DNA from: Litoreibacter halocynthiae
GTDB taxonomy: Bacteria; Pseudomonadota; Alphaproteobacteria; Rhodobacterales; Rhodobacteraceae
DNA: 64,000 nt
Direction: 5' to 3'
NCBI RefSeq assembly: GCF_004365635.1
Contig: NZ_SOBH01000001.1
Coordinates: forward strand, 248,001-312,000
Position numbers and translations under genes: made by a program. Of this stretch, positions 47,377-64,000 are shown piece after piece. The notes under the pieces were generated by a model. It saw only the letters and a program-made list of their open reading frames with translations. It did no database searches and was not told the DNA's origin. Each line of letters starts with the position of its first letter. Positions within the stretch are counted from its first letter, which is position 1.

Positions 47377-47436
47377 GGTCGTCTCCCCTGAAAATGCCCG
47401 TGTGCCACATGGGCACACGGGTGTGTGTGGCTGTCT

Positions 47437-47877: not shown

Positions 47878-47908
47878 TTGGATACTCCTTTGATGCGTTG
47901 AGAAACCT

Positions 47909-48883
47909 TTATTCAGGGACGCAGATTGCACCCGCGCGGACCGCCATGGCCGTACGCCAGATCAGCCCGAAGATGACGACCACCAACAGCGCCAGAAGAC
48001 CTGCGCCGATCCAGCGATGGGCGTCGGAGCCCGCCGCATGGGCGTAGCCGAAACTCGCGATGGACAGCGCCGCGATGGGGAAGGACAGCGCCCACCATGA
48101 CAGCGCGAAGGGCAGGTTCCGCAGTTTGGATGCCTGCGTGGCGACAAGCAGGGCGAAGATGTAACCGGCGTTTAGCAAGACCTGCCCGAATGGCCCGACC
48201 TCGCCTTCCAGACCCATCCACGCGGTGAAGGCCACTGCAGGGGGTGCCACGAGGATCATCAGCGTCGGCACCATTTTTCCCGGCATCGGGTCGTGAAACA
48301 TCAGGCGGTTCATCACCAAGGTCAGCAGGATGATCCAGAAGATCAGCCCGCCGGAGAAGAACAGCCATGACAGTTCCACATACCCCAGCTTGGTCCCCGC
48401 CAGCGGCACGATGACGTTGCCCACCGCGGGGATGAACCATGCAGGTGTCATCATCCCCGTCTGGAACGACCGGTGACCGATCCACGCGGACAAAACCGAC
48501 AGCGCAAGCACGCCTTGCAAGCCGGTCCCGAACAGCCACAAAGGCTCCGCCAGTGCAGGCGCGGTTTCCACCAGCGCCGTGGCGAGCAACAGCAGCGAGA
48601 TAGAGATCGCAGGGAAGAAGGCGATCTTCACCGGATGGTGCCAGTCCGCCGCCACCTCGGCGGAGTGGCGCAGGGCTTTAGCGATGTAGCCCGCAGAGAT
48701 CGCGATCAGCAAAAGGACCGAGAAGACCAGCACGGCCTGCGACAGGGTGTGGCTTCGGGCGAAGATCGTTTCAGCCGCCCGCATGGCAAGGGTGAAGCCC
48801 ATCATGCCCATGCCAATGGCGAAAAAGGTGATGGGAAAGTTGGCGAGCCGCGTCTGGCTCGCAGCTGTTGTGGAAACGGACAT
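47909..48883 (-). CDS. TDT-family (SLAC1/TehA/Ssu1-like) permease
   Basis: A 324-residue inner-membrane protein with ten hydrophobic segments; FPITFFAIGMGMMGFTLAMRAAETIF opens the TDT fold and AWIGHRSFQTGMMTPAWFIPAVGNVIVPLAG holds the conserved mid-part with its Gly/Pro signature. The family covers tellurite-resistance TehA, malate channels and sulfite pumps (Ssu1). Heading an operon with DsrE-like and SQR genes, it most likely exports sulfite or another anion formed during sulfide oxidation; this is inference. Confidence 0.85.
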   Translation of the reverse strand: MSVSTTAASQTRLANFPITFFAIGMGMMGFTLAMRAAETIFARSHTLSQAVLVFSVLLLIAISAGYIAKALRHSAEVAADWHHPVKIAFFPAISISLLLLATALVETAPALAEPLWLFGTGLQGVLALSVLSAWIGHRSFQTGMMTPAWFIPAVGNVIVPLAGTKLGYVELSWLFFSGGLIFWIILLTLVMNRLMFHDPMPGKMVPTLMILVAPPAVAFTAWMGLEGEVGPFGQVLLNAGYIFALLVATQASKLRNLPFALSWWALSFPIAALSIASFGYAHAAGSDAHRWIGAGLLALLVVVIFGLIWRTAMAVRAGAICVPE

Positions 48884-49303: not shown

Positions 49304-50749
49304 ATGACGTATCTTGGAATTGATCTTGGCACTTCGGGGCTGCGTGCTTTGCTGGTCGCCGCCGACGGGCAAATGATCGGAGCCGCCGAGCACCACTACG
49401 AGGTGGCGCATCCCCATTCCGGCTGGTCCGAGCAAGACCCCGCCGACTGGATTGCCGCCCTTGACGTTGCGATGGACGAGTTGCGATCTGCCCACCCCGA
49501 GTTTGCCGCGCTTAAAGGTATCGGCGTTGCGGGGCATATGCACGGCGCGACCTTGCTGGACGATGCGGGCTCCGTGCTGCGCCCGTGCATTTTATGGAAC
49601 GACACGCGCGCGTCGGCGGAGGCCGCGCGGCTGGACGGCACCGACAAGGTGCGAGCGCTGTCCGGCAATATCGTCTTTCCGGGCTTCACCGCCCCCAAGC
49701 TCGACTGGGTCCGCACCCACGAGCCGGAGGTTTTCGCTAAGACCGCCCGCGTGCTGCTGCCCGCGGCCTACCTCAACCACTACCTGACCGGTGACTACGT
49801 GGCCGACATGTCCGACAGTGCGGGCACCGCTTGGCTGGATGTGGGCAAGCGTGACTGGTCGGACCACCTGCTGGATGTCAGCCACATGCGCCGCGACCAG
49901 ATGCCCAGGCTGGTCGAAGGGTCGGAACCTGCTGGTTTGTTGCGCGATGACCTGGCGTCGAAATGGGGTGTGTCGGACGTGACGATTGCGGGCGGTGCTG
50001 GCGACAACGCCGCCGCCGCTTGCGGGATCGGCGCGATGGACGAAGGGCAGGGGTTCGTGTCCCTTGGCACCTCCGGCGTGGTGCTGGCCGCGCGGGACGG
50101 CTACCGCCCTGCGCCGGACACTGCGTTGCACACCTTCTGTCACGCGGTGCCGGATCGCTGGTATCAGATGGGCGTGATGCTGTCGGCAACCGACAGCCTG
50201 AACTGGTTGGCGCGGATCACCGACACCTCCCCGAAAGAGTTGACGGCGGACTTGGGCGAGGAGCTGCAAAAGCCAGGTTCGGTATGCTTCCTGCCCTACC
50301 TGTCGGGCGAGCGCACACCGCATAATGACGCGGAAATTCGCGGCAGTTTTACGGGGCTGTCCGCAGGAACCACGCGCGATGATATGACCCGCGCGGTGCT
50401 GGAAGGCGTGGCGTTCGGGCTGCGTGACAGTTTCGAGGCGTTGAAAGCCACGGGGGCTGAACTGGAGCAGTTGATCGCTATCGGCGGCGGCACCGGCTCG
50501 CGCTATTGGTTGCGCTTGATCGCGACCGTTTTGGGCGTACCGCTGGCCTTGCCTGCGGGCGGTGAGTTCGGTGCGGCGCTTGGGGCCGCACGGTTGGGGA
50601 TGGCGGCGACAGGGGCTTCACTCGATCAGATCATGACCACACCGGAAATCAGCGAAGTGATCCAGCCGGATCGTGCATTGCAGGCGGAGTATGATGCGGC
50701 CTACGTTAAGTTTCGCGCCGCCTATCCCATCATCAAGCAGGCTCAGTAA
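49304..50749 (+). CDS. xylB: Xylulokinase (FGGY kinase)
   Basis: A 481-residue sugar kinase that phosphorylates D-xylulose for the pentose phosphate pathway. The N-terminal phosphate loop YLGIDLGTSGLRALLV, the WSEQDPADWIAAL block, GVAGHMHGATLLD and the catalytic Asp region in LRPCILWNDTR are typical; IAIGGGTGSRYWLRLIA is the C-terminal adenosine motif. No xylose isomerase or xylose transporter is next to it, so it may instead serve xylulose from the pentose or polyol routes upstream. Its 3' end overlaps the opposite-strand gene at 50743 by 7 bases. Confidence 0.92.
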   Translation: MTYLGIDLGTSGLRALLVAADGQMIGAAEHHYEVAHPHSGWSEQDPADWIAALDVAMDELRSAHPEFAALKGIGVAGHMHGATLLDDAGSVLRPCILWNDTRASAEAARLDGTDKVRALSGNIVFPGFTAPKLDWVRTHEPEVFAKTARVLLPAAYLNHYLTGDYVADMSDSAGTAWLDVGKRDWSDHLLDVSHMRRDQMPRLVEGSEPAGLLRDDLASKWGVSDVTIAGGAGDNAAAACGIGAMDEGQGFVSLGTSGVVLAARDGYRPAPDTALHTFCHAVPDRWYQMGVMLSATDSLNWLARITDTSPKELTADLGEELQKPGSVCFLPYLSGERTPHNDAEIRGSFTGLSAGTTRDDMTRAVLEGVAFGLRDSFEALKATGAELEQLIAIGGGTGSRYWLRLIATVLGVPLALPAGGEFGAALGAARLGMAATGASLDQIMTTPEISEVIQPDRALQAEYDAAYVKFRAAYPIIKQAQ

Positions 50750-51939
50750 CCGCCGCGCGTTTGCGGCGTGCGGATGCCCAAGATGCTACCTGCGACTTGC
50801 GTGCGCAGGATCTGCGCGGTGCCGCCGCCGATGGTGAACATGCGCACGTCGCGGTACATCCGCTCCAGCGGCTCCTCGCTGCCGTAACCCCGTGCGCCAA
50901 ACATTTGCAAAGCATCATTGACCACCTTGATCGCCGCCTCGGAGGCGAACAGCTTTGCCCGCGCCGCCATAGCGATGTCGGGGAAGGGGGACCCGTTGGG
51001 GCCACGCGATTGCGCGGCCTCGTGCAGCATCAGGCGCGACGCGTGGACAGATGCGTCCATATCCGCCAGCATCCATTGCAAGCCTTGAAATTCCGCCAGC
51101 GGGCGGCCGAATTGTTCGCGCTCCAGCAGGTAGCGTTTGGCGTGGTCCAGCGCGCCTGCGGCGACGCCCATGGCGATGGTGCCAGCACCCACGCGCTGGC
51201 TGTTATAGGCGTTCATCAGATCGGCAAAGCCGCGCTTGAAGCCGGAGGGCGGGCGCAGCACATGGGCGTCTTCGATGAACACGTCTTTGAATTCCAGCGT
51301 CGTCTCCGGCATGCCGCACAGCCCCATGGTGCGTTCGCGGCTGACGACGGTGAAGCCGTCATGGTCCATGCCGTTCTCGGGGTCTTGGCACATGATGAAG
51401 CCGCCGATGCCTTGATCTTCTCCGTCCTCGTCCAGCACGCGGGCAAAGACCAGATGCAGCTTGGAGACCCCGCCGCCGGTGATCCAGTGCTTGGTGCCGT
51501 TCAGCACATAACCCCCATCTACGCGCCGCGCGGTGGTGGTCATCTGGGTGGCGGCGCTGCCTGCGTCAGGCTCGCTGATGCAGATGGCGGGCTTGTCGCC
51601 TGCCAGCACGTAAGGCGCGACGAATTCTTTTTGCGCCTCGGTCCCGTAGGCCATGATCGCGCTGATGCCGCCCATATTGGCCTCGACCACAATGCGTGCG
51701 CTGAGCGTGCAGGCTTTCGCCAGTTCCTCGACCACGATCACGGTGTCCAGCCATGAAGCGCCCTGACCGCCATACCGCGTGGACAGGGTCATGCCCATCA
51801 GGCCTGCGCTTGTCAGGTCTTTAATGTTGTCCCAGCAATAGCTGCGCTCTTGATCCCATTTCGCCGCACGGGGGGCGAATTTGGCGGCTAAGTCCCGCGC
51901 GATGGCACGGTAGGACTCGGAGGAAGAGGTGTGTTTCAT
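50743..51939 (-). CDS. Acyl-CoA-dehydrogenase-fold protein, probable 3-sulfinopropionyl-CoA desulfinase
   Basis: A 398-residue protein of the acyl-CoA dehydrogenase fold: CISEPDAGSAATQM, NGTKHWITGGGVSK (FAD contacts), REQFGRPLAEFQGLQWMLADMD and the C-terminal MFTIGGGTAQILRTQ. The usual catalytic Glu is absent: the IYEGT position reads IGGGT (Gly372) and the isovaleryl-type position in the LERL segment is Gln248. R82 sits where I recall the sulfinate-binding Arg84 of the Advenella 3-sulfinopropionyl-CoA desulfinase, whose sequence this resembles closely from memory. It would release sulfite and give propionyl-CoA. The ATG at 51939 is chosen over a longer frame. It is divergent from a LysR gene. 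Alternative: an ordinary dehydrogenase with an unusual base. Confidence 0.75.
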   Translation of the reverse strand: MKHTSSSESYRAIARDLAAKFAPRAAKWDQERSYCWDNIKDLTSAGLMGMTLSTRYGGQGASWLDTVIVVEELAKACTLSARIVVEANMGGISAIMAYGTEAQKEFVAPYVLAGDKPAICISEPDAGSAATQMTTTARRVDGGYVLNGTKHWITGGGVSKLHLVFARVLDEDGEDQGIGGFIMCQDPENGMDHDGFTVVSRERTMGLCGMPETTLEFKDVFIEDAHVLRPPSGFKRGFADLMNAYNSQRVGAGTIAMGVAAGALDHAKRYLLEREQFGRPLAEFQGLQWMLADMDASVHASRLMLHEAAQSRGPNGSPFPDIAMAARAKLFASEAAIKVVNDALQMFGARGYGSEEPLERMYRDVRMFTIGGGTAQILRTQVAGSILGIRTPQTRGGY

Positions 51940-52014
51940 AGCGCGATTGTGAAGTCTATGCTTTTCCAAAACAATCTAATAAGAATGAAGTGTAAGTTCA
52001 GGTAAATTGAAATA

Positions 52015-52878
52015 ATGCAAACCCGTGCGCTGGAGACCTTGGTTAGAATTTTGCAGGTGCAGTCCTTTAGCGAGGCGGCGCAGTTGCAGAATATGACGCT
52101 GTCGGCGCTGAGTATGCAGATGAAAGCGCTGGAGGCGGAATTGGACGCGGAACTGTTCGACCGCAGCTTCCGCCCGCCACGGCTGACGCCCTTGGGGCGG
52201 CAGGTGGCGGAACAGGCGAAGGGGGTCATCACCGGCGTGGCCGATTTGCACGATCTGGCCAATGCAGGGGCCGGCTTGAGCGGGTCGTTTCAACTTGGCT
52301 TCATCCAGTCCGCCAGCGCCCGCATCCTGCCGAAATTCGTGACCTTAGCGGCGGAGCGGGAGAAGAGGGCGAGCTTTCGATACAGCTCCAACCTGTCAGA
52401 GGCGCTGACCGAGCAAGTGTCGTTGGGGCAGCTCGACGCCGCGATTGTCACGCGGGTCGAGGGCGGGGCGCGGGGGTTGCATGTGGAGCTGATCGCGTCG
52501 GAGCCGATGGCGTTGGCGGTGCCTGTTGCACTGGCTGAACTGGATGCGGTGCAGCTTTCGCAGCAGGTGCCGTTCATCCATTTCCGCCCCAGCACAGGGA
52601 TCGGCAAACTGATCGCCGCATCATTGGGGGCGGGGGTGCCGCCGCAAAACACGCTGGTGCTGGACAGCATCGAGGCCTGCATGGAATGCGTCAAGGAAGG
52701 CGTCGGCTACACCGTTTTGCCCTTGCCTGACATCCGCCGCTACACGGACACGCGGGTGCATGTGGTGGAGGGCGCGTTGCAAGGGCTGACACGCGATCTG
52801 GTGATGCTGACCCGCGACGACGCGCAGGCGGGGCGGTGGCGGCCCAGATTGCTGTCGCTGGTCAGGGCCGCGTCCTAG
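52015..52878 (+). CDS. LysR-family transcriptional regulator (first)
   Basis: A 287-residue LysR regulator: N-terminal helix-turn-helix ALETLVRILQVQSFSEAAQLQNMTLSALSMQMKALEAEL (residues 5-45), LFDRSFRPPRLTPLGRQV, and a periplasmic-binding-like effector domain. It is divergent from the desulfinase-like gene (75 bases between starts) and convergent with tctA, the stops overlapping by 4 bases. It is the natural regulator of the desulfinase-like gene. Confidence 0.9.
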   Translation: MQTRALETLVRILQVQSFSEAAQLQNMTLSALSMQMKALEAELDAELFDRSFRPPRLTPLGRQVAEQAKGVITGVADLHDLANAGAGLSGSFQLGFIQSASARILPKFVTLAAEREKRASFRYSSNLSEALTEQVSLGQLDAAIVTRVEGGARGLHVELIASEPMALAVPVALAELDAVQLSQQVPFIHFRPSTGIGKLIAASLGAGVPPQNTLVLDSIEACMECVKEGVGYTVLPLPDIRRYTDTRVHVVEGALQGLTRDLVMLTRDDAQAGRWRPRLLSLVRAAS

Positions 52879-54374
52879 GCCCGCCGCTTCAGGTTCCGCG
52901 TGGCGCGGATGCCTGCGCGGATGATGGCGATGACAGTCAGCACCGTCAGACCCCAGAAGAACCATGTGATCGGCCCGCGGAACAGGATCGCGGGGGAGCT
53001 GCCGGACATAAGCATCGCTTGGCGGAAGTTGTCTTCCAGCAGCGGGCCGAGGATGAAGGCGATCAGGAAGGGCGCGGCGGGGATGTCGTTGCGCATCATC
53101 AGGAAGCCGACCCAGCCCATCACGAACATGACGCCCACATCGAAGATGTTGTTGTTTACCGCGAACACCCCGTAGACGCACAGCACCAGCACGCCGGGGA
53201 AGAGAACTCCGCGCGGGATGTCGGCCACGTATTTGAACCCGCGAATGGCGATGGAGCCGATGAAGAACAGGAAGACGGAGCTGACGATCAGGCCGATGAA
53301 CAACCCGTAGATGATGTCGACATTGAGGATGAACATCATGGGCCCCGGTTGCAGCCCGTGGACCATGAACGCGCCGATGATGATGGCGGTGATCACGTCG
53401 CCCGGCACGCCAAGCGCCAGAAGCGGGATCAGGGTGGCCCCTGCGACGCCGTTATTACCGGCCTCGGAGGCGGCGACCCCTTCTAGCTCGCCCTTGCCAA
53501 AGTTGTCACGGTTGGGCGATTTGCGCCGCGCCTCGCTATAGGACAGGAAGGCGGACGGGGCCGCGCCGATGCCGGGGATGGAGCCGAGGAACACCCCGAT
53601 GAAGCTGCCGCGCACGATGGATTTGAAGCAACGCTTGTATTCCCCGAAGGTGACCTTGTTGTCGCCCAGACTGCGGGTCTGGCCTTTGTGCGGCTTCGGG
53701 TCCCAGACCATGGCCAGCACCTCGGGGATAGCGAAAAGCCCGATGAGGACTGCGATGAAGTTGAGGCCGCCCATCATGCTGGGATCGCCGAAAGTGAAGC
53801 GGTTGGTGCCGTAGACCAGATCGAGGCCGACCGTTGCCAGCAGCAGCCCCAGCATCGCCGACAGCGCCCCGCGTAACAGGCTGGCACCAGAGACACCGGC
53901 GATGATGGTGAGCGAGAACAGGATCAGGGTGAAGAATTCCGGCGGTCCGAAGTTCAGCGCGAAGGATGCGAGCCAGCCCGCGAACAGGATCAGCGCGAGG
54001 TTGGAGATCAGATCGGCGGTGCAGGACGCCCAAAGGGCCATGCCGAGCGCCTTGCCCGCCTGGCCTTTCTCTGCCAGCGGATAGCCGTCCAGCACAGTGG
54101 CGCTGGAGGCGGGGGTGCCGGGGGTCTTGATCAGGATCGCGGGGATGGAGCCGCCGAAAATGCCGCCCTTGTAGACGCCCAGCAGCAGCAGAATGGCGAT
54201 GATCGGCTGCATGGAAAAGGTAAACGGCAGGGTCAGCGCCACGGCCATGGTGGCGGACATGCCGGGGATTGCGCCTGCAATGGTGCCGATGGCGACACCT
54301 GCGAACAGCGCCAGAAACGCCTCGAAATTGCCGACGAGGGACAGGCCTGCGAGGATGCTGTCGACAAAGCTCAT
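52875..54374 (-). CDS. tctA: Tripartite tricarboxylate transporter large permease (TctA)
   Basis: A 499-residue membrane protein with about twelve hydrophobic segments. GTIAGAIPGMSATMAVALTLPFTF is the TctA signature, VLDGYPLAEKGQAGKALGMAL and GSFIGVFLGSIPGIGAAPSAFLSY are the second repeat, and GVAGATLIPLLALGVPGDVITAI completes the double-repeat pattern. It is the main permease of a Tct/Bug-type importer for polycarboxylic or other organic acids. It overlaps tctB by 4 bases. Confidence 0.93.
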   Translation of the reverse strand: MSFVDSILAGLSLVGNFEAFLALFAGVAIGTIAGAIPGMSATMAVALTLPFTFSMQPIIAILLLLGVYKGGIFGGSIPAILIKTPGTPASSATVLDGYPLAEKGQAGKALGMALWASCTADLISNLALILFAGWLASFALNFGPPEFFTLILFSLTIIAGVSGASLLRGALSAMLGLLLATVGLDLVYGTNRFTFGDPSMMGGLNFIAVLIGLFAIPEVLAMVWDPKPHKGQTRSLGDNKVTFGEYKRCFKSIVRGSFIGVFLGSIPGIGAAPSAFLSYSEARRKSPNRDNFGKGELEGVAASEAGNNGVAGATLIPLLALGVPGDVITAIIIGAFMVHGLQPGPMMFILNVDIIYGLFIGLIVSSVFLFFIGSIAIRGFKYVADIPRGVLFPGVLVLCVYGVFAVNNNIFDVGVMFVMGWVGFLMMRNDIPAAPFLIAFILGPLLEDNFRQAMLMSGSSPAILFRGPITWFFWGLTVLTVIAIIRAGIRATRNLKRRA

Positions 54375-54853
54375 GGCAGCCTCACGAAGTTGCCTTGCGG
54401 GATCGCGACGCTGGCGATATGGGCGAAGAACACATAAAGCACCAGTGGCACGCAGATCGCGCAGATGAGCGCGGTTTTAGGATGCGAGGTGCGGACTAGG
54501 AAGGCGGTGGTCACGAAGGCCAGCATAGAGGTCCAGACCATGCCAAGGCGCGGAAGGCCGAACATGTAGATCACCATGACCACGGCCATGATGGCGAGGC
54601 GACCGTATCCGCCGGGGATTTCGGCTTTCTCTTGGGACATGTCTTCGGACGAGAAATGCCCCGTAATTGTCAGCCCCAAACCGATGACGATGGTGAGGGC
54701 GGACAAGGTATAGGGCCAGAACACCGGCGACAGGATGATGTTACGCACATTGCTAGGCGAGGACACCCAGTTCGGAATTGCCACAATCATCAGGAACAGG
54801 CCCGCGACGACCGCGAATAGTCCGATGAGCGTTTGCCGGTGGAGGTTTTGCAT
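54371..54853 (-). CDS. tctB: Tripartite tricarboxylate transporter small permease (TctB)
   Basis: A 160-residue membrane protein with four hydrophobic segments (about residues 9-28, 45-68, 84-104, 122-150) and low sequence conservation, as usual for TctB. Its place between tctC and tctA with a 4-base overlap to tctA gives the identification. The ATG at 54853 is taken because the longer open frame upstream (from 54913) lies in the hairpin region between tctC and tctB. Confidence 0.85.
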   Translation of the reverse strand: MQNLHRQTLIGLFAVVAGLFLMIVAIPNWVSSPSNVRNIILSPVFWPYTLSALTIVIGLGLTITGHFSSEDMSQEKAEIPGGYGRLAIMAVVMVIYMFGLPRLGMVWTSMLAFVTTAFLVRTSHPKTALICAICVPLVLYVFFAHIASVAIPQGNFVRLP

Positions 54854-54876
54854 GAACGGGCCTCGCTGGATAGAGA

Positions 54877-54910
54877 AACGGCGCGCAAAGGTTAAACCCC
54901 GCGCGCCGTT
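54877..54910 (-). terminator. Intercistronic stem-loop between tctC and tctB
   Basis: Perfect 10-bp stem AACGGCGCGC (54877-54886) with GCGCGCCGTT (54901-54910) and a 14-base loop. It lies directly after the binding-protein gene and before the permease genes, as the loop at 34344 does in the TRAP operon. Confidence 0.7.
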
Positions 54911-54923
54911 CATACGTTAGATC

Positions 54924-55901
54924 TTAGCCTTCGATCCGCATACCCAGTTTATCGACCAGCGCGCGGAATGTGTTGTATTGCTCCTGAATGAACGCGTTGG
55001 CGTCCTCGGGGCTCATCACGTCGATGATCGAGCCACGGGCTTCCATCGAGGATACGAATTCCTCGTCACCCGCGGCAGCAGCCATCCACTCGCCCCATTT
55101 TCCGGCGACCTCGTCAGAGATGTCGGCAGGGCCTGCGATGCCAGTCCAGCCCACAAGCTGGTGCAGCGCTGGCTTGCCCAGATCAGCGGCTGTCGGTGCG
55201 TCGAAGCCAACCACTGGTTCCTTTGTGGTGACCATCAAAGGCTTCATCTGGCCGTTGGCCACGAAGCTGGCGAGGGCCGAGGAGTTGGTGCACAAGAAGG
55301 TGGCCGTGCCGTTCAACACAGCCGTGACAGCCGCGCCACCGCCTTTTTGCGGGATGTGTGTCGCCGCGTTGAGCGGGTCTTCGACGCCAAACTCGTCGAG
55401 CACCATAGCGCCCGCCAAGTGTAGACCGGACCCGACGCCGGAGGAGGAGTAGCTGACGCCACCCTCGGCCACCTTGGCGATCAGGTCATCCATCGAATTG
55501 ATGTCGGAATTGGCCTCGACCGCGCAGGCAAACGGGTTGATTTCGTAGACCGTCACGAAGCGGAAATCGTCCAGCGTGTAGGGCAGGGTCGCCTTCATCG
55601 CAGGGTTGACCGAGTGTGAACCGACCCGTGCGAACAGCATGGTGTAGCCGTCTGCCTTGGCGTTTTTCACTGCGACGGAGCCTGTCGCCCCACCAGCACC
55701 AGTGACATTCGCCATGATCAGCGATTGGCCCACAGCTTTGCCCAAAGGCTCCGCAATCGTGCGCGCCGAGATGTCGGTGGCCCCGCCTGCGCCGTAAGGG
55801 ATGACCATATTGATCGGCCGCTCGGGGTAGTCCGCGGCGGATGCAGCCGTGGCAAGGCCGATTACCATTGCGCTCACGGCGCTGAATTTCGCAAATTTCA
55901 T
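54924..55901 (-). CDS. tctC: Tripartite tricarboxylate transporter binding protein (TctC/Bug family)
   Basis: A 325-residue periplasmic receptor: signal peptide (residues 1-22, ASAAD), YPERPINMVIPYGAGGATDISARTIAEPLGK and LIMANVTGAGGATGSVAVKNAKADGYTMLFA, both Bug-family hallmarks where the backbone loop binds the ligand carboxylate. Bug proteins bind a wide range of organic acids. It heads the tct operon and is divergent from the LysR gene at 56065. A related receptor class has been linked to dithiodipropionate uptake in Advenella (recalled). Confidence 0.92.
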   Translation of the reverse strand: MKFAKFSAVSAMVIGLATAASAADYPERPINMVIPYGAGGATDISARTIAEPLGKAVGQSLIMANVTGAGGATGSVAVKNAKADGYTMLFARVGSHSVNPAMKATLPYTLDDFRFVTVYEINPFACAVEANSDINSMDDLIAKVAEGGVSYSSSGVGSGLHLAGAMVLDEFGVEDPLNAATHIPQKGGGAAVTAVLNGTATFLCTNSSALASFVANGQMKPLMVTTKEPVVGFDAPTAADLGKPALHQLVGWTGIAGPADISDEVAGKWGEWMAAAAGDEEFVSSMEARGSIIDVMSPEDANAFIQEQYNTFRALVDKLGMRIEG

Positions 55902-56064: not shown

Positions 56065-56970
56065 ATGTCCATCCGAATGCTCCGCACGTTAATTGCCGTC
56101 GAGGAAAACGGCACCTTCAGCGCGGCTGGCGAAGCGGTGTTCGTCACCCATGCCGCCGTCAGCCAGCAGATGAAAGCACTAGAGGAAGGGTGGGGTATCA
56201 CTCTGTTTGATCGCACGCGCCGAACGCCCGAGCTTACCCCGGTCGGGCGCGCTATCGTCACCCGCGCCCGTGAAATTGTGGCGGCCTATGACAACCTGCT
56301 GCCTTCGGTTCTGGGCGATGACGGGTTGCGGGGCAACCTGTCGCTGGGCAGCGTGCCGACGGGGCTGACAAGCCTGATCCCTTTCGCTATCACCTCGATC
56401 AAGGCGCGCTTTCCCGACCTTCATATTGGCGTCACGCCGGGTCAAACCAAAGAACTGTTGATTGATCTGGAACGCGGGGTCTTGGACGCCGCCGTGATCA
56501 CCAAGCCGCATGTGATCCCGCATAATATGCGCTGGGCGCCGATCAGTCAGGAGCCGATGGAGCTGCTGGCGTCGGTCAACGTCACCTCGGACGACCCGTT
56601 CGAGATACTGGCGACGCAGCCCTACATCCGCTTCACCCGCAAGGCGTTGTTGAGCGACTTTATCGACAACTGGCTGCAAGAAAAGAACATCACGGTGAAG
56701 GACACCATGGAGCTGGAAAACCTCGAGATCATCTCCAGCATGGTGCATGCCGATCTGGGCGTCTCGATTGTGCCGCGCCGGAGTGTGCAACCGCCGAACC
56801 CGCTGCCGTTGAAACACATCCCGCTGGGTGACGACGCGCCGGTGCGGGAATTGGGACTGATGTCGCTGGCCAACACGGTGAAACTGCGCGTGCTGCAAGA
56901 GGTTGAGGCAGAGTTGTTAAACGCGGTTGCGGTGGGGCGGTTCGATCCGTTTCCACGAGGGGCGGGATAG
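56065..56970 (+). CDS. LysR-family transcriptional regulator (second)
   Basis: A 301-residue LysR regulator: MLRTLIAVEENGTFSAAGEAVFVTHAAVSQQMKALEEG helix-turn-helix, LFDRTRRTPELTPVGRAIVTRA, then an effector-binding domain. It is divergent from tctC with 163 bases between starts. That gap contains an ATTG-ATTA-CAAT palindrome (56018-56029) of the LysR T-N11-A kind. It starts an operon with the TauE and enolase-superfamily genes, 4 bases before the former. Confidence 0.9.
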   Translation: MSIRMLRTLIAVEENGTFSAAGEAVFVTHAAVSQQMKALEEGWGITLFDRTRRTPELTPVGRAIVTRAREIVAAYDNLLPSVLGDDGLRGNLSLGSVPTGLTSLIPFAITSIKARFPDLHIGVTPGQTKELLIDLERGVLDAAVITKPHVIPHNMRWAPISQEPMELLASVNVTSDDPFEILATQPYIRFTRKALLSDFIDNWLQEKNITVKDTMELENLEIISSMVHADLGVSIVPRRSVQPPNPLPLKHIPLGDDAPVRELGLMSLANTVKLRVLQEVEAELLNAVAVGRFDPFPRGAG

Positions 56971-56974
56971 GATC

Positions 56975-57718
56975 ATGACTTTGGATTTCTTCGTCATCCT
57001 CGCCCTTGGGGCGGCATCCGGCGGCTTTATCAACGGGCTGGCGGGCTTCGGCACCGCGCTGTTCGCCTTGGGCTTCTGGTTGCAGATCATGCCCCCCGCG
57101 CAGGCGGTGTCGGTCGTGGTGATCATGTCGGTCATCGCAGGGTTGCAGGGCGTGTGGCTGGTGCGCGCCTCGATCATGGACCAACCGCGCAGGTTGGCCC
57201 GCTTCGCGCTGCCCGCACTGGTCGGCGTGCCTTTGGGTGTGGCGGCCTTGTCGGTGCTGGAACCCGGAATACTAAAACTGATCATCGCGGGATTTCTGAT
57301 CCTCTATGGCGGGTTTTTCACCCTGCGTTCGTCCTTGCCGAAGCTGGAGCGCCCGACACCCGCGATCGACATGCTTGTCGGGTTTGCCGGGGGCGTATTG
57401 GGCGGGGCGGCGTCGCTGTCGGGTGCGTTGCCTACGATGTGGTGCGCGATGCGCCCGTGGCCCAAATCCGAGACGCGTGCGGTGCTGCAACCCTTCAACG
57501 TGATCGTGCTGGGCGTCACGGCTTTGGTTTTTGCGATCAATGGCACCTACACGGGCCAAACGCTGACCTATATCGCGATGGCCTTACCGGTGACGATGAT
57601 CTTCGCGCAGATCGGGATATCCGTGTTCAAACGCCTGACCGACGACCAGTTCCGCCGCTTGTTGATTGCGATGATGCTGGTGTCGGGGTTGGTCCTGATG
57701 GTGCGGGAGGTGCTTTAG
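56975..57718 (+). CDS. TauE/SafE-family exporter (probable sulfite exporter)
   Basis: A 247-residue membrane protein with eight hydrophobic segments; GAASGGFINGLAGFGTALFALGF and the repeated GGVLGGAASLSGALPTMWCAMRPWPK correspond to the two TauE/SafE halves. The ATG at 56975 gives the family length; the open frame upstream overlaps the LysR gene. The family exports sulfite or sulfoacetate and related organic anions. It lies in one transcription unit with the LysR gene and the enolase-superfamily gene (next start immediately after the stop). Exporting the sulfite made by the desulfinase-like protein is the attractive role. Confidence 0.88.
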   Translation: MTLDFFVILALGAASGGFINGLAGFGTALFALGFWLQIMPPAQAVSVVVIMSVIAGLQGVWLVRASIMDQPRRLARFALPALVGVPLGVAALSVLEPGILKLIIAGFLILYGGFFTLRSSLPKLERPTPAIDMLVGFAGGVLGGAASLSGALPTMWCAMRPWPKSETRAVLQPFNVIVLGVTALVFAINGTYTGQTLTYIAMALPVTMIFAQIGISVFKRLTDDQFRRLLIAMMLVSGLVLMVREVL

Positions 57719-58852
57719 ATGGCGCATGTGATCGAACGGGTCGAGGTGTTTTGCTACCGCGTGCCGGTGAAGGTGCCGGTGGCGACGTCATTCGGCGTGA
57801 TGCGGGACCGTCCGGCGGTGTTTGTGAAACTGACCGATCAGGACGGCTGCTTCGGCTGGGGAGAGATCTTCGCCAACTGGCCCGCTGCCGCCGCCGAACA
57901 CCGTGCGCAGCTTCTGGTGCGCGATATTTGCGATTTGGTGGTTGGGGCGATAGTGGCGCAGGCGGGCGACTTGTTCGAGCGCCTCACTACGCAGACCCAT
58001 ATCCGCGCGTTGCAATCGGGCGAATGGGGGCCGTTCGCTCAGGTGATTGCGGGGCTGGATATTGCGCTGCACGATATGTTCTCGCGGCGGGAGGGAGTCT
58101 CGGTGGCGCGGTTTCTGAATGCGGATGCGGCAAGCACCGTGCCGACCTATGCGAGCGGCATCGCCATAGGCGCGGCGCCCGAGTTGATCGCCCGCGCCCG
58201 AGCGGCGGGGCATGACGCGTTCAAAGTGAAGATCGGTTTCGGCGCGGATGATATGGACCAGTTGCGCGACCTGTCTGGCAGTTTGCAGGGTGGCGAAGCG
58301 CTCATGGCCGACGTCAATCAGGCGTGGTCGGTGGCGGACGCGTTGGCTCTTGCAGGCCGGATCGACGCCGTTGGGCTGGGTTGGCTGGAAGAGCCTATCC
58401 GTGCGGACCTTCCCGCAGAGGGCTGGGCGGCTTTGGCGGACACTTTCAACACCCCGCTGGCAGGCGGCGAAAACATCACCGGCCATGCGGATTTCGACGC
58501 CGCAATCGCCACGCGGCATCTGTCGGTGATCCAGCCCGACATCGTCAAATGGGGCGGGCTCGGCGGCTGTGCCGCCGTCGCTCGCAAGGTTCGTGACGCG
58601 GGCCTGCGCTACTGCCCGCATTTTCTGGGCGGCGGCATCGGGCTGATTGCGTCCGGGCATTTGCTGGCGGCGGTTGGCGGCGACGGGCTTTTGGAGGTCG
58701 ACGTGAACCCCAACCCGCTGCGCGACGCGTTTGGTGGCGCATTGGTGGAGGGTGGCATGTTCGACATTGCACACGCGCCGGGTTTGGGCGTTGAAAACCT
58801 GCCCGAAGAATTGGCGCAATTCCAGACGTTGGCGCTGGAAGCGCACGCCTAG
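57719..58852 (+). CDS. Enolase-superfamily enzyme (mandelate racemase/MLE group), second copy
   Basis: A 377-residue enolase-superfamily protein: KVK at 169-171, metal ligands D198, E224 (LEEP) and E251 (GGEN), then D274 (QPDIVKWGGLGG) and H301 (CPHFLGGGIG). These fit mandelate-racemase-type dehydratases or racemases of hydroxy acids. It begins directly after the tauE stop and converges with the fumarase beta gene, stops overlapping by 4 bases. It is unlike the copy at 24837 outside the catalytic motifs. The substrate is unknown. Confidence 0.87.
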   Translation: MAHVIERVEVFCYRVPVKVPVATSFGVMRDRPAVFVKLTDQDGCFGWGEIFANWPAAAAEHRAQLLVRDICDLVVGAIVAQAGDLFERLTTQTHIRALQSGEWGPFAQVIAGLDIALHDMFSRREGVSVARFLNADAASTVPTYASGIAIGAAPELIARARAAGHDAFKVKIGFGADDMDQLRDLSGSLQGGEALMADVNQAWSVADALALAGRIDAVGLGWLEEPIRADLPAEGWAALADTFNTPLAGGENITGHADFDAAIATRHLSVIQPDIVKWGGLGGCAAVARKVRDAGLRYCPHFLGGGIGLIASGHLLAAVGGDGLLEVDVNPNPLRDAFGGALVEGGMFDIAHAPGLGVENLPEELAQFQTLALEAHA

Positions 58853-59514
58853 ATAACTTCGTCGCTGCGGTCGTCCGTCTCGCCATAGCGCTTGAGCGTT
58901 GCGGGACGGGTGCCTTCGTAGACGCGGTGCAGGTTCTCGGCGATTTTGGCGTTTTCGCGCTCGAACAGGCAGTCGCCGTTTTTGTCAGAGGCCACGATGA
59001 ACGGCCCCATATTGTTGCACTTGATGACCCACATGGCTTGGGCGAGGCCTAGTTCCTCGTTCCAATGCACGGCCTCCACCTTCTCGACCCCGCGCCCCAG
59101 CAATGCGCCGGTGCCGTAGCCGACGGTGGACAGGTAGATCGCGCCGTTGGGGACGAAATAGGACTTGTAGTCCTTGGACGTCATGCCGCCCTTGCCGATG
59201 ATCAGCTTCGCGCCGGTCTTCTCCATCCATTCCGGCAACCATTTGGCGAAGCGGAAGGACGCGGTGGCGGTGACGGCCCCCATCTCGAAGCTGCCATCAG
59301 GGTTGATCCGCGCAGCGGGGGAGCAGTGGAAATTAGCCGCCGAGTCGCGGGGCAACTCCATGGGGATGTTGGCTTTTTCCTCCAGTGCGCGTTTGTAGAC
59401 GCCTTCGCGTCCGGTATACATCAGCCCGTCCAGATAGACGATGTCGCCAAGTTGCAGATCGTCAAGCGCCTCTTGCGTGGGCGTGGTGCTCAGGCGGGTT
59501 TTACGCGGGCTCAT
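58849..59514 (-). CDS. Class I fumarase/tartrate-dehydratase-like hydratase, beta subunit
   Basis: A 221-residue C-terminal-domain protein of the class I fumarase family: DLQLGDIVYLDGLMYTGREGVYKRALE, NFHCSPAARINPDGSFEMGAVTATASFR, LIIGKGGMTSKDY and HWNEELGLAQAMWVIKCNNMGPFIV. It pairs with the alpha subunit encoded at 60638 to add water to an unsaturated dicarboxylate (fumarate, mesaconate) or remove it from tartrate. It is the last gene of the SDH-like operon, overlapping the CoA-transferase by 4 bases. Confidence 0.88.
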   Translation of the reverse strand: MSPRKTRLSTTPTQEALDDLQLGDIVYLDGLMYTGREGVYKRALEEKANIPMELPRDSAANFHCSPAARINPDGSFEMGAVTATASFRFAKWLPEWMEKTGAKLIIGKGGMTSKDYKSYFVPNGAIYLSTVGYGTGALLGRGVEKVEAVHWNEELGLAQAMWVIKCNNMGPFIVASDKNGDCLFERENAKIAENLHRVYEGTRPATLKRYGETDDRSDEVI

Positions 59515-60641
59515 TGGGCGGCCTCCGGTGATGTAATTTCGTCCGTGTCGCGCCCGAAGGTGGGCGCGGGGTGAAGCTGTGTGGGCGCCCAAGGGGCGCG
59601 GAAACTGAGGCCGGGGGCGCGGACGGTCTGGTCCAGTTCCGGCACGGGGAGCTCATGCCAACAGGGGGAGTTTTGCATCTGCGGATGCGCCAGTGTTTCG
59701 CCCAAGCTGAGGACCGGACCAGCGGGGACATCGGCCTCCGCCAGCACGGTGTCCCAGTGGCTGGCGGGCTGCGTGGCGAAGATTTGTGTGAGCGTTTTCG
59801 TGACGGTTTCGGGGTCTGACTGCGCTAGTTCGGGGCGACCGAGCGCGAGGCACAAGCGGCGCGTTTGCGCGGGCGTGTTGGCGGTGATGACAAGCTGGCC
59901 TTCGGCACAGTCGAACCTGCCGGAAAACGGCGAATCCGAGAATGCGCGGTTACCGTCGAGCCCCCGCAAAGCGCCGGTGGTCTGGTGGTTGATCGCATAG
60001 GCGCCCATGAGATTGGTCATCGCGTCGAGCATGGAGACATGCAGCTCCTGCGGCTTCAGCGGCTGTTTGGCGCGTTGCAGGAGCGCCGCCAGAATGGCTG
60101 CAACCAGCGATTGCCCCGCGACATAGTCCACAATGGGAATGCCGACGCGCAGGGGGCCACTTTCAGGGCTTCCTGTCATCGCCATCAAGCCACTAACGCC
60201 TTGCAGGATATGGTCATAGGCAGGACGGGAGGCGAGGGGGCCGTCGGGGCCGTAGCCCGACAGGCTGGCATGGATCAGGTCTGGCTTGCGCCGCGTGGTG
60301 GCGTCAAAGCCAAGGCCAAGGCGGTCGGCGACGCCGGGGCGGAAGTTTTGCACCAAGACGTCTGCCTCGGCCACCAGCGACAAAGCGGCGTCCAGTCCGG
60401 CCTTGTCTTTGAGGTCCAGCACCACGGATTTCTTACCGGAGTTCTGGCTTAGGAACGACGCGCCCAACCCTGCGTCGCGCATCGCCTGCGTGCCGCCGTG
60501 TGTGCGCACGAAGTCGTCGCCGCCGGGACGCTCTATGCGGATGACCTCAGCGCCCATCAGCGCCAGTTGGCCCGTCGCATAAGGCCCCGCCAGCACATGG
60601 GTGAGGTCGACAATTCTTATGCCCGACAGGGGCTGGGTCAT
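59511..60641 (-). CDS. Class III (CaiB/BaiF) CoA-transferase
   Basis: A 376-residue CoA-transferase that moves CoA from an acyl-CoA (often succinyl-CoA) to another carboxylic acid. GIRIVDLTHVLAGPYATGQLALMGAEVIRIE opens the fold, and D143 in AYDHILQGVSG is the catalytic Asp. It is located between the two hydratase-subunit genes with 4-base overlaps, so it most likely activates the same dicarboxylate or its hydration product. It also resembles the class of succinyl-CoA:3-sulfinopropionate transferases, which are of this family. Confidence 0.9.
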   Translation of the reverse strand: MTQPLSGIRIVDLTHVLAGPYATGQLALMGAEVIRIERPGGDDFVRTHGGTQAMRDAGLGASFLSQNSGKKSVVLDLKDKAGLDAALSLVAEADVLVQNFRPGVADRLGLGFDATTRRKPDLIHASLSGYGPDGPLASRPAYDHILQGVSGLMAMTGSPESGPLRVGIPIVDYVAGQSLVAAILAALLQRAKQPLKPQELHVSMLDAMTNLMGAYAINHQTTGALRGLDGNRAFSDSPFSGRFDCAEGQLVITANTPAQTRRLCLALGRPELAQSDPETVTKTLTQIFATQPASHWDTVLAEADVPAGPVLSLGETLAHPQMQNSPCWHELPVPELDQTVRAPGLSFRAPWAPTQLHPAPTFGRDTDEITSPEAAQ

Positions 60642-61597
60642 TCCGCCGCCTCCATCGCGGGGGCGTCCCATTCGACGGTTTCACGGCGTTGATAGTCGGT
60701 GAACCAGTCGGGGTCGGTGCGGTATTCCACCCGCCCGTCCGCGAACACCCGCGCCACGGCGCGGCGCGATGACAGGCAGAAGGCGTGGACGGACATTTGC
60801 ATGCCGCCGGTATGGCAATAACCCACCTCGATGTTGCAATCGACGACCATGGATTTGCCGACGAAGCCCATGGCGCCCATGCCGATGGAGTTGCCCAGTT
60901 CCTTGAATTCCCGCTCCAGCTCCGCGATTTTCGGGTCGGAATTCTCGCTGCCCACTGTGCGCAGGCAGGCGGCGCGTTTGCCCAAGACCATGCAGGTGTC
61001 CTTGCAGCCGCCAAGACCGATGCCGATGATGGCAGGCTGGCAGGCAAGGCCGCGTTTGCCGAAGGCCACGAGGCTGTCGAGGTAGAACCGCTTGATCCCC
61101 TCGATCCCGTCGGAGGGGAACAGCATCCGGTAATCGGTGCCGAACAGCCCGCCTTTATGGACGGTGATCAGGTCGATCCATTCGCCGCCCGGCTCGTAGC
61201 CATACTCGATCTCCGGCGCGCCGATGCCGACGTTGTTGTTGTGATCCGTCCGCCAAAGCGGATGCACGCGGTTGGGGCGCAAAGGCACGCCGTTGGTGGC
61301 ATTCGCCGTGGCGCGGCGGAGGGCTTGTTCAAGGGCAATCGGCCCGCCTTCGATCTGCGTCTCGTTGCCCATTTTGACATACCAGCGCGGGGTGCCGGTG
61401 TCGCCACACATGGCGCGGCGGTCTTCCTTGGCGGCCTCGTAATTTTCCAGCATGGCCTGCAACACGAAGGAGGAAAGGTCGCCGTCCTCGACTGCGGCGC
61501 TGGCTTTGAGGCCGTCCAAATAGTCTTGCGGGATTTCGATTGCCGCCTTGTCCATCAGGGTCTCGGCGGTTTTCTGGATGATGTCGATGGGGATCAT
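60638..61597 (-). CDS. Class I fumarase/tartrate-dehydratase-like hydratase, alpha subunit
   Basis: A 319-residue Fe-S hydratase subunit: RRAMCGDTGTPRWYVKMG with C64, THGTDYRMLF-type segment VHKGGLFGTDYRMLFPSD, IGIGLGGCKDTC (C198) and VVDCNIEVGYCHTGGMQM (C254, C261), which supply the [4Fe-4S] ligands. It is the N-terminal half of class I fumarases, here split from the beta subunit by a CoA-transferase gene. The ATG at 61597 overlaps the flavoprotein stop by 4 bases. Confidence 0.9.
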   Translation of the reverse strand: MIPIDIIQKTAETLMDKAAIEIPQDYLDGLKASAAVEDGDLSSFVLQAMLENYEAAKEDRRAMCGDTGTPRWYVKMGNETQIEGGPIALEQALRRATANATNGVPLRPNRVHPLWRTDHNNNVGIGAPEIEYGYEPGGEWIDLITVHKGGLFGTDYRMLFPSDGIEGIKRFYLDSLVAFGKRGLACQPAIIGIGLGGCKDTCMVLGKRAACLRTVGSENSDPKIAELEREFKELGNSIGMGAMGFVGKSMVVDCNIEVGYCHTGGMQMSVHAFCLSSRRAVARVFADGRVEYRTDPDWFTDYQRRETVEWDAPAMEAAE

Positions 61598-63351
61598 TCT
61601 GCGGCCTCCACTAATGAGACGGGTTCGCCTTCGGGCAGGATGGTCTGGCCCGGCTTGACGATGGTGAACTGGACGTCCTCGCGGGTGACGTCGAGGGTGT
61701 CGCCTGTTTGGCGGGCGACGGTGAAATAGCTGCTTTCCATCGCGCCGCTCTCGGGGAAGTCCTCGCGGTAATGTGCGCCTCGGGAGTTTTCGCGGGCGAG
61801 GCCTGCTTTGGTGATGACCTCGGAAATTTCGCACAGCGACGCGAGGTTCAGCCAGTCGTGCCATGTCAGGTTGAAGGCGAGGTTGTCGCCTGCGACGCCT
61901 GCTTCTAGCAATTCGGCCTGAATGTCGGCGATGCGGGTCAGACCGCGCTCCATCCCCGTTTCGGTGCGCATGACGCCGACGTCTTCCCACATGGCTTCTT
62001 GCAGCTTGTCGCGCAGTGGCTGGATCGGGGCGATCTTGTTTTGCAGCGGGCGCAGCGCGCGGGCGATTTCAGCGTCCAATACAGCCTCGTCAGGATCGCG
62101 CAACGCGCCCATGTTACGAATATCCATGCCCATCACGTCGCCCGCGACGCCGCCATAGACGGTGGAGTTCGCCACCCCGTTGCCGCCCAAACGGTTGGAG
62201 CCGTGGGCGCCGCCCGCGTCTTCGCCCGCCACATAGAGACCTTCCAACGCGGTGCGGGTGTCGGGGTCGACCACGACGCCGCCCATGAAGTAATGCGCTG
62301 TGGGCACGACCTCGACCAGCCCGGCGGCCAGATCGAAGCCTGAATCGGCGCAGCGCTTGACCATGCCGGGGAATTTGGCGCGTACGTTTTCAGGGCCAAG
62401 ATGGGACATGGAGATGTATACGCCGCCATTGGGCGTTGTCGTGTTCGACTTGCGCATTTCGGCGAAGATGCCACGGCTGACCACGTCGCGGGTGGCGCGT
62501 TCGCCCTTGGCGTCATAGTCGAACATGAAGCGGTTTTCCGCGCCATTGAGCAATTGCCCGCCCGCGCCGCGCAGGCCTTCCTCCAGCACTGTGCCGGTCA
62601 TCTTGGTGTGATCGCCCGCCAGAAGTCCCGTGGGGTGAAACTGCACCATTTCCATGTCGCGGAGCGGCAGGCCGACGCGCAGGGCCATTGCTAGCCCGTC
62701 CATCGTTTTGTCGCCCGAGGGTGTGTGATACTTGTACATGGTCGGGCCGCCGCCGGTGCCCATCAGCACGGTCTTGGCGCGCACGAAGCGGAACTTGCCG
62801 CTGCGCATGTCGATCATCAAAACGCCCGCAAGCGCGGAGCCGTCCTTGGTCGGGATCAACCCGATGGCGCGGTGCTCTTGCAGTTTCTCGACGGGGCGGG
62901 ACAGGACTTGTTCCATCAACCGATTGATGATCTCAATGCCCGTCAGGTCGCCCTTATGCACCGTGCGGTCGGCAGTCTGGCCCGCAAACGCCTTCTGGTG
63001 CAGAGAGCCGTCGGGGTTGCGGTCGAAGAAGCAGCCGATTTCGTTTTCCAGCTCGCGGATGCGCACCACGGCCTGCTCGCACAGCTTCCACGCCATGTCC
63101 TGATTGGGCAGCCATTTGCCGCCTTGGATGGTGTCCATGAAATGCCGCTCGACCGTGTCGCCGCCGCCAAGGGCGACGTTGTAGCCGCCTTGCACCATGC
63201 GGGTGCAGCCGCATTTGCCGATCAGGCCTTTGACGGCGATGGTGATTTTGGTGCCTGCCGGTGCGCTTTGCTGGGCGTGCAGCGCGGCGAACATACCCGC
63301 GCCGCCGGTGCCGAGGATCAGGATGTCGGTGTCGTGTCTCTCGATCTGCAT
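61594..63351 (-). CDS. Succinate dehydrogenase/fumarate reductase-like flavoprotein without the FAD-linking His
   Basis: A 585-residue flavoprotein: LILGTGGAGMFAALHA FAD fold, QFHPTG (H239), LEEGLRGAGG (E258, R261), RATRDVVSRG (R288, R293), HYFMGG (H353) and GSNRLGGN (R387), i.e. the dicarboxylate-binding and proton-shuttle residues of SdhA/FrdA. Where SdhA has the histidine that covalently binds FAD (SHTxxAQGG), this protein has C49 (CTRMVQGG), so covalent 8-alpha-histidyl FAD is not expected. The ATG at 63351 shares one base with the anchor gene's TGA. No iron-sulfur subunit is in the window. Confidence 0.9.
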   Translation of the reverse strand: MQIERHDTDILILGTGGAGMFAALHAQQSAPAGTKITIAVKGLIGKCGCTRMVQGGYNVALGGGDTVERHFMDTIQGGKWLPNQDMAWKLCEQAVVRIRELENEIGCFFDRNPDGSLHQKAFAGQTADRTVHKGDLTGIEIINRLMEQVLSRPVEKLQEHRAIGLIPTKDGSALAGVLMIDMRSGKFRFVRAKTVLMGTGGGPTMYKYHTPSGDKTMDGLAMALRVGLPLRDMEMVQFHPTGLLAGDHTKMTGTVLEEGLRGAGGQLLNGAENRFMFDYDAKGERATRDVVSRGIFAEMRKSNTTTPNGGVYISMSHLGPENVRAKFPGMVKRCADSGFDLAAGLVEVVPTAHYFMGGVVVDPDTRTALEGLYVAGEDAGGAHGSNRLGGNGVANSTVYGGVAGDVMGMDIRNMGALRDPDEAVLDAEIARALRPLQNKIAPIQPLRDKLQEAMWEDVGVMRTETGMERGLTRIADIQAELLEAGVAGDNLAFNLTWHDWLNLASLCEISEVITKAGLARENSRGAHYREDFPESGAMESSYFTVARQTGDTLDVTREDVQFTIVKPGQTILPEGEPVSLVEAAE

Positions 63352-63692
63352 CAGATGGCCCTCAGAAGGAAAATGCCCGCAAGGAATGTCGACGCGGCGA
63401 CGGCGCTGGCGGCGGCGGTTTTCTGGCCCGACGTCCATGGCAGGAACTCCAGCGCCATCAGGCGGAGCCCGCCGAGCATGTGGACAGAGAGCAGGAACAC
63501 GAGGCCGAATTCTGCGAACTTGACGATGGGGGTTTCCGCCCAGTGCAGGAACCCGTCCAGTTTTTGCGGCGCGTTGAGCGCGTAGGACAGCACCCAGAAA
63601 TGCGCGGGTAGAAACAGCGCCAAAGCCACACCGGAGATGCGGTGCAGCAGGAACGCGATCCAGAGCGTGTGGGTGCGGTATCCGTGTATCAT
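63351..63692 (-). CDS. SDH-type membrane anchor subunit (SdhC/SdhD-like), second
   Basis: A 113-residue membrane protein with three hydrophobic segments and the HRISGVALALFLPAHFWVLSYALN segment of SdhC-like cytochrome b subunits, plus a further membrane His (VHMLGG) as a candidate heme ligand. It would pass electrons from the flavoprotein to quinone. The ATG at 63692 is used because the open frame before it lies inside the other anchor gene; 4 bases overlap with that gene. Confidence 0.85.
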   Translation of the reverse strand: MIHGYRTHTLWIAFLLHRISGVALALFLPAHFWVLSYALNAPQKLDGFLHWAETPIVKFAEFGLVFLLSVHMLGGLRLMALEFLPWTSGQKTAAASAVAASTFLAGIFLLRAI

Positions 63693-64000
63693 GTTGCCGT
63701 CACCCCATAGACGGCCTGCATCCCGAGGATCAGGAGCAGGGCGAGGACGGCCCATGCGACCGCGTTCAAAGCGGTGCCGCGCAAGCCTGCCCATTCCGAC
63801 AGCACCGTGCGCAGGCCTAAGGCCGCGTGGATGGACACGGCGACGACGAAAGTGCCGTAGAACGCGAACCACAGGATGCTGCCTTGGGTGCGGCCAAGGA
63901 TTTCCGCTGCTGATAGCCCGCCTTGGATGGCGTAGATCATCACCGCGATATGCATCAGCACCAGCGGCGCCATGATCAGCGCCGAGATGCGCTGCGCCAT
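63689..64000 (-). CDS. SDH-type membrane anchor subunit, first (5' end probably cut by the window edge)
   Basis: At least 103 residues with three hydrophobic segments: QRISALIMAPLVLMHIAVMIYA, GTFVVAVSIHAALGLRTVLSEW and a C-terminal helix; the His residues in LMHIA and SIHAALG are heme-ligand candidates. The frame is open to the window edge and the first Met is at the very end, while homologs usually have some residues before this point, so the start may lie outside. It overlaps the second anchor by 4 bases. Confidence 0.8.
   Translation of the reverse strand: MAQRISALIMAPLVLMHIAVMIYAIQGGLSAAEILGRTQGSILWFAFYGTFVVAVSIHAALGLRTVLSEWAGLRGTALNAVAWAVLALLLILGMQAVYGVTAT

Follow-up and report, generated by a model that had tools for sequence, protein, structure and literature searches.

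A predicted 3-sulfinopropionyl-CoA desulfinase in Litoreibacter halocynthiae and a neighbouring gene cluster that probably makes sulfite

The closest described systems to the one considered here are those of Advenella mimigardefordensis DPN7 and Variovorax paradoxus TBEA6. In the relevant portions of the published accounts, a dioxygenase (Mdo) oxidises 3-mercaptopropionate to 3-sulfinopropionate (3SP) in Advenella and Variovorax, either SucCD or the CoA-transferase Act converts this acid into its CoA ester, and the desulfinase Acd finally releases sulfite (PMC5373536, PMC6370202). For V. paradoxus TBEA6, with which we draw the likeness from published description, these portions report the enzyme AcdA in the catabolism of 3,3'-thiodipropionate, where 3SP-CoA, formed by SucCD or Act, yields propionyl-CoA and sulfite, and they place mdo, act and acdA in one cluster together with a putative acetolactate synthase gene, ilvX. 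Deletion of ilvX is described there as leaving growth on thiodipropionate unchanged (PMC6370202 or PMC5373536), which argues against a need for such a thiamine pyrophosphate (TPP)-type enzyme in Variovorax. Here we analyse a relative of these genes in a stretch of 64,000 nucleotides from Litoreibacter halocynthiae (Rhodobacteraceae; assembly GCF_004365635.1, contig NZ_SOBH01000001.1, positions 248,001 to 312,000 of the forward strand), hereafter the window. The product of this gene, Acd, is very probably a 3SP-CoA desulfinase, judging from its sequence. The original prediction for this protein, removal of sulfinate from an acyl-CoA with formation of sulfite, is supported by a score above the cutoff of a curated equivalog family, by the closest solved structure, by the diagnostic residues held in common and by the clade in which it falls.

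Score, diagnostic residues and phylogeny of Acd

The open reading frame of acd spans 50743-51969, and the ATG at 51939 was chosen as the start because it is conserved in three other Litoreibacter, which gives a protein of 398 residues; the original prediction had placed the gene correctly without naming its strand, which is the minus one. The nearest named relatives, from Litoreibacter arenae, L. ascidiaceicola and L. meonggei, are 95-96% identical. Against the NCBIfam equivalog NF042439 (3-sulfinopropionyl-CoA desulfinase) the protein scores 662.5 bits, with a curated cutoff of 600. The Advenella desulfinase AcdDPN7 (PDB 5af7, 5ahs) is both the nearest solved structure and the top match in sequence and fold, and the two proteins are 53-56% identical in fold alignments. 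The second-ranking NCBIfam match is acryloyl-CoA reductase, which could be taken to mean that Acd is inactive or that it works as a reductase or oxygenase with this fold. That match, however, reaches 269.5 bits and lies far under its cutoff of 640, the residues R82, Q248 and G372 are kept in every family row that covers them, and a LysR regulator of one group accompanies acd in 62 of the 80 named loci compared (kept from 277 relatives found, many loci being short), in 61 of these on the opposite strand; we consider this alternative barely credible.

In ordinary acyl-CoA dehydrogenases the catalytic Glu sits in a C-terminal YEG motif, whereas the window Acd has G372 at this place (...RMFTIGGGTAQ...). 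The isovaleryl-CoA dehydrogenase likewise has no Glu at the YEG position; its base, to judge from the motif, presumably corresponds to Q248 of the window Acd (within AYNSQRVGAG), where the Glu is again missing, the family having Gln in 120 of 121 rows and a gap in the remaining one. The base of the human enzyme is given as E286, also a Glu, in the consulted part of its description (PMC12369846). In an alignment of 132 rows, made up of 121 family rows (among them close relatives and near copies, and hence not independent), 7 acyl-CoA dehydrogenase paralogues of the host genome and 4 intermediate rows of 311-319 bits, R82, Q248 and G372 align with R84, Q246 and G366 of the Advenella desulfinase. 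Arg occupies position 82 in all 121 family rows, and Gln at 248 and Gly at 372 are each found in 120, the exception (L033) being a piece of 101 residues ended by an in-frame stop, with a gap at both positions. None of the seven paralogues has any of the three; three of the four intermediate rows pair Gly at 372 with Glu at 248, which is the isovaleryl pattern, the fourth has Glu at 372, and Arg at 82 occurs in none of them. Since the set is kept across the family, absent from the paralogues and complete in no intermediate, it marks the family as a whole and is no chance variant. The alignment also confirms what had been read earlier from the single sequence, namely the lack of Glu at both usual positions with R82 retained, and the likeness to the Advenella enzyme in its Gln at the base position and its Arg near 84.

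A tree was built from 52 of the aligned rows, with a midpoint root and long outgroup branches. In this tree 41 family rows, those of Advenella and Cupriavidus necator N-1 included, are set apart from the other rows by a branch supported at 99/98, the Betaproteobacteria (Advenella, C. necator N-1, Paraburkholderia and Diaphorobacter) cluster at 100/100, and the window Acd pairs with that of L. arenae at 100/100. In this phylogenetic comparison, which had been suggested along with the original prediction, the protein groups with desulfinases and has no firm placement among dehydrogenases that draw a Glu from elsewhere. Residues, clade and curated score together rule out that Acd is an ordinary or isovaleryl-type dehydrogenase. 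A variant of this idea, a dehydrogenase with its catalytic base at a third position, could draw on the isovaleryl-type enzymes and benzylmalonyl-CoA dehydrogenase, which also lack the YEG Glu according to the relevant passages of their descriptions (PMC8360864, PMC11659651), and on E283 of the window Acd, a conserved and family-specific acid. However, E283 is common to the Advenella desulfinase (E281), and both clade and curated score put the window Acd with the desulfinases, making such a dehydrogenase highly improbable.

Regarding the mechanism of a 3SP-CoA desulfinase, the equivalent of Arg84 is presumably important for the sulfinate. We infer the substrate, products, cofactor and role of R82 from the Advenella enzyme: with FAD bound but no net redox step, Acd would bind 3SP-CoA, R82 would hold the sulfinate, and sulfite and propionyl-CoA would be released. 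An ordinary alpha,beta-dehydrogenation could not be started by this protein, because the proton-abstracting Glu is missing at the positions of both G372 and Q248.

Distribution, partner genes and the source of the substrate

Genes that pass the equivalog cutoff are present in 25 of 295 sampled genomes of the Rhodobacteraceae, each of a different genus, and in 7 of 398 genomes drawn from the phylum, while the 80 named loci belong mostly to Rhodobacterales and Rhizobiales-type Alphaproteobacteria, with a few Gammaproteobacteria. Two acd copies lie 10 kb apart in one genome, G224 (C13:809-1933, which is L033, and 12180-13310, L016), the first with an in-frame stop in the matched stretch. Within a plasmid collection, five of seven Acd relatives were already named with this function, the other two being a record without annotation and a match without an annotated feature. 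The enzyme type is already known, and its naming in databases precedes the present finding. A Roseobacter case had been expected to widen the range of the reaction, and such a case does exist; it is not new to databases, however, for NCBI already names relatives in Ruegeria and Sulfitobacter 3-sulfinopropanoyl-CoA desulfinase.

In the host (genome G000, 99.99% complete), activation to the CoA ester would probably fall to the Act-type CoA-transferase at G000:C1:742394-743605, 442 kb from acd. The label Act-type is used here for family III CoA-transferases encoded beside acd, as found in Paraburkholderia, Diaphorobacter, Mesorhizobium and ten marine loci; the Act characterised in Variovorax stands outside this comparison. 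The host gene is 61-70% identical to the ten acd-linked marine transferases, 61% to that of Mesorhizobium and 54-56% to those of Paraburkholderia and Diaphorobacter, and it is directly preceded, with a gap of 38 bases, by a gene for an acetolactate-synthase-like TPP enzyme (the pair being L146:7731-9359 and 9395-10609, or G000:C1:740730-743608). The family III CoA-transferase of the window itself was ruled out as the Act orthologue, since it is 30-35% identical to the Act-type enzymes compared, versus 54-70% for L120 of the same genome; at 50% identity or more it was found in only three loci of the 80, all from Litoreibacter.

Over the 295 genomes (E limits of 1e-150 and 1e-140), the TPP enzyme is found in 16 of 25 acd-positive versus 59 of 270 acd-negative genomes (p 2e-5), the Act-type gene in 15 versus 54 (p 4e-5), and one or the other in 21 versus 71 (p 1.7e-8). 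The TPP gene lies within 64 bases of acd in five acd-positive genomes and the Act-type gene within 83 bases in five (in G224 beside the stop-bearing copy), and in 9 of the 25 genomes either or both adjoin acd. A TPP enzyme serving acd alone is ruled out by its occurrence in the 59 acd-negative genomes. Both genes are present in 52 genomes. In 51 of them no more than 200 bases separate the two, and acd is missing from 42 of the 51, so the pair must have a role of its own. TPP enzymes also occur in the clusters of Sulfitobacter and Methylobacterium described below; these are only about 26-27% identical and form a different group. Three loci (L045, L052 and L063) have the gene order acd, TPP enzyme, aspartate-type aminotransferase, Act-type gene, a run which suggests an amino-acid-derived sulfinate as substrate.

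As to where 3SP would come from, Mdo is present in the published cluster of V. paradoxus TBEA6, whereas no match to it was found in Litoreibacter. The profile PF05995 found no match in the host genome nor in 45 genomes of the family, 25 of them acd-positive, although it is a weak probe that gives just 31.1 and 20.9 bits to two dioxygenases neighbouring acd; PF07847 gave no match either, but its controls gave none, which makes it uninformative. The search was repeated with one of these two dioxygenases because PF05995 alone is so weak. This query, a protein annotated as cysteine dioxygenase in the Diaphorobacter acd cluster, matched the record from which it was taken, W02 (100%), and that of Paraburkholderia, W01 (68%), and found nothing in 25 of 27 acd-positive genomes of the family, the host among them, with weak matches in the other two (G200 and G211; 32-34% over about 100 residues). 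Counted over the 25 acd-positive genomes among the 295, 23 have no match and the other two have weak ones. Twelve further genomes or records, in which W denotes plasmids only, gave a 46% match (and one of 28%) in G428, matches of 29-31% in G677, G678 and the N-1 plasmid W03, and none in W04, G341, G528, G563 and G679-G682. By these searches the source of 3SP in the host is not the known thiol dioxygenase, and Mdo is ruled out in this role in Litoreibacter.

Compared with Advenella, the window shares the fold, the R84/Q246/G366 set and the clade of Acd, as well as LysR and TctC-type genes in the neighbourhood of acd, as far as the relevant part of the source describes it (PMC5373536). It differs in the triplet at the YEG position, in the lack of a match to Mdo, in the unlinked Act-type gene, in having a tripartite tricarboxylate (TTT) transporter with permease genes adjoining acd, and in a nearby cluster of succinate-dehydrogenase-like (SDH-like) and fumarase-like genes. 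C. necator N-1, which we take to bear a tested 3SP-CoA desulfinase, carries on plasmid pBB1 an Acd of the same family and of the betaproteobacterial branch, 59% identical to that of the window, with Act-type, TPP and SDH-like/fumarase-like genes within 23 kb; in Litoreibacter, by comparison, the Act-type and TPP genes lie some 440 kb from acd.

Several of these observations weigh against a 3SP-CoA desulfinase in Litoreibacter: the identity to the Advenella enzyme leaves room for a shifted acyl substrate, the host has no match to Mdo and an Act-type gene unlinked to acd, both Act and the TPP enzyme are missing, under the limits applied, from 4 of the 25 genomes with acd, and the tree has the rooting and long branches mentioned above. 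They could be accommodated by a desulfinase for another sulfino-acyl-CoA, branched or longer and from a different route, the marine branch having drifted in substrate. The scarcity of matches to Mdo, the known source of 3SP, in the acd-positive genomes of the family speaks for it, as do the partners that go beyond the known clusters (TPP enzyme, aminotransferase, SDH-like/fumarase-like cluster) and the triplet, which is GGG in the window Acd and AGG in the Advenella enzyme. AGG is the motif that the relevant part of the literature reports for the known desulfinase at this position (PMC8360864). On the other hand, the diagnostic residues are identical, and a single plasmid of C. necator N-1 brings together Act-type, TPP and SDH-like/fumarase-like genes. 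A shifted substrate therefore seems unlikely to us, and 3SP-CoA is the substrate we prefer.

The SDH-like and fumarase-like cluster

Between acd and the SDH-like/fumarase-like cluster (58849-63872, minus strand) lie the genes for TauE, a mandelate racemase/muconate lactonizing enzyme (MLE)-family protein, a second LysR regulator and the TTT transporter (Table 1). The motifs FHPTG, RDVVSR, PTAHYFMGG and HGSNRLGG of the flavoprotein are ones that we take to be of SDH type. Fumarase-like genes occur within 10 kb of acd in at least 8 of the 80 named loci (L034-L036, L043, L053, L058, L069 and L096); in Sulfitobacter THAF37 they are on the acd plasmid, about 9 kb away, and in C. necator N-1 they lie 10 kb from acd, with an Act-type gene and a TPP enzyme that is 53% identical. 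No TauE or YeiH match above thresholds was seen in the 40 kb read around the N-1 genes.

In a survey of plasmids, the annotated surroundings of the SDH-like flavoprotein were read on 8 of the 17 records found. In seven of the eight, a gene of TauE or sulfate-exporter type is found no more than 10 kb from it; these seven are from Paracoccus ferrooxidans, P. seriniphilus (with YeiH alone, at a distance of about 9 kb and with unrelated genes between), Methylobacterium nodulans, M. oryzae, Pseudomonas MPC6, Pseudorhizobium NT-26 and Sulfitobacter THAF37, while Sulfitobacter S190 has a TTT transporter near the flavoprotein and neither type of exporter. Moreover, SoxC-type (607.2 bits, cutoff 420) and SorA-type (695.9, cutoff 600) sulfite dehydrogenases flank the cluster in M. 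nodulans, and an annotated sulfite oxidase is near it in Pseudomonas MPC6. Because of these exporter and sulfite dehydrogenase or oxidase companions, the cluster probably makes sulfite.

We propose that a sulfo-dicarboxylate, for instance sulfosuccinate, may be the compound from which it frees this sulfite, since the reactions of SDH and fumarase, applied to sulfosuccinate, would yield oxaloacetate and sulfite. The SDH-like complex would oxidise sulfosuccinate to sulfofumarate, and the fumarase-like hydratase would then give the bisulfite adduct of oxaloacetate, which would fall apart into oxaloacetate and sulfite. A literature search for sulfosuccinate with fumarase or desulfonation found nothing, although published work beyond its reach may exist. 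Sulfolactate genes were looked for beside the SDH-like cluster, and a Paracoccus Ldh-family protein scored 205.3 against the cutoff of 500 for L-sulfolactate dehydrogenase; a Methylobacterium UxaA-family protein near the cluster matches only galactarate dehydratase, under its cutoff.

Taken jointly, the two sets of genes could represent a desulfinase pathway of marine Alphaproteobacteria unlike that of soil Betaproteobacteria, with no thiol dioxygenase acting on 3-mercaptopropionate, next to a sulfite-releasing island for the breakdown of a sulfo-dicarboxylate, a combined picture that we put forward as doubtful, if conceivable. In such a pathway 3SP would either be imported by TTT or TAXI-TRAP systems, or arise from an amino-acid sulfinate, for example homocysteine sulfinate, through the aspartate-type aminotransferase and then the TPP enzyme as a 2-oxo-acid decarboxylase, before passing to the Act-type CoA-transferase and Acd. 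Sulfite set free from small organic sulfur acids enters the sulfur cycle of the sea, and the presence of acd in 25 of 295 genomes, mostly without a match to Mdo, poses a testable question about the natural marine source of 3SP or the true substrate of the enzyme. The SDH-like/fumarase-like cluster, which in unrelated bacteria often neighbours sulfite exporters, offers another lead on desulfonation, possibly the more novel of the two.

Gene arrangement in the window

Judging from their positions, the TTT transporter adjacent to acd may take up the sulfur acid, and TauE may remove sulfite. Sulfite-export-type genes had been noted near acd, and two candidates are indeed present, TauE and a TDT/SLAC1 channel; nevertheless, TauE belongs with the neighbouring recurrent cluster, and no test linked the channel to acd. 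A promoter scan of 50600-52100, the acd/LysR region, gave no signal exceeding that of shuffled sequences.

Table 1. Genes of the window around acd and the SDH-like/fumarase-like cluster
Feature	Coordinates	Strand	Remarks
xylB	49304-50749	+	convergent with acd, whose end overlaps it by seven bases
acd, acyl-CoA-dehydrogenase fold, predicted 3-sulfinopropionyl-CoA desulfinase	50743..51939	-	398 aa
LysR regulator	52015..52878	+	divergent from acd
TctA, large TTT permease subunit	52875..54374	-	homologues annotated TTT permease; candidate sulfur-acid importer
TctB, small TTT subunit	54371..54913	-	
TctC/Bug-type periplasmic binding protein of TTT	54924..55901	-	
Second LysR regulator	56065..56970	+	adjoins TauE
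TauE/SafE family sulfite-exporter-type permease	56927..57718	+	PF01925
Mandelate racemase/muconate lactonizing enzyme family protein	57719..58852	+	same place in Sulfitobacter THAF37
Class I fumarase-like beta subunit	58849..59592	-	likely ATG at 59514
Family III CoA-transferase	59511..60671	-	second ATG at 60641
Class I fumarase-like alpha subunit	60638..61990	-	likely ATG at 61597
Succinate-dehydrogenase-like flavoprotein	61594..63438	-	likely ATG at 63351
SdhC-like cytochrome b anchor	63351..63872	-	likely ATG at 63692; further sdh-like genes, if any, past the window end

The TDT/SLAC1 channel (47909-48883) belongs to a single run of genes on the minus strand (46060-48883), together with a sulfide:quinone-reductase-like flavoprotein (188 bits, cutoff 525) and a small protein whose start is signal-like and which matches no family. 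A DUF5368 protein is encoded at 45694-46047, also on the minus strand.

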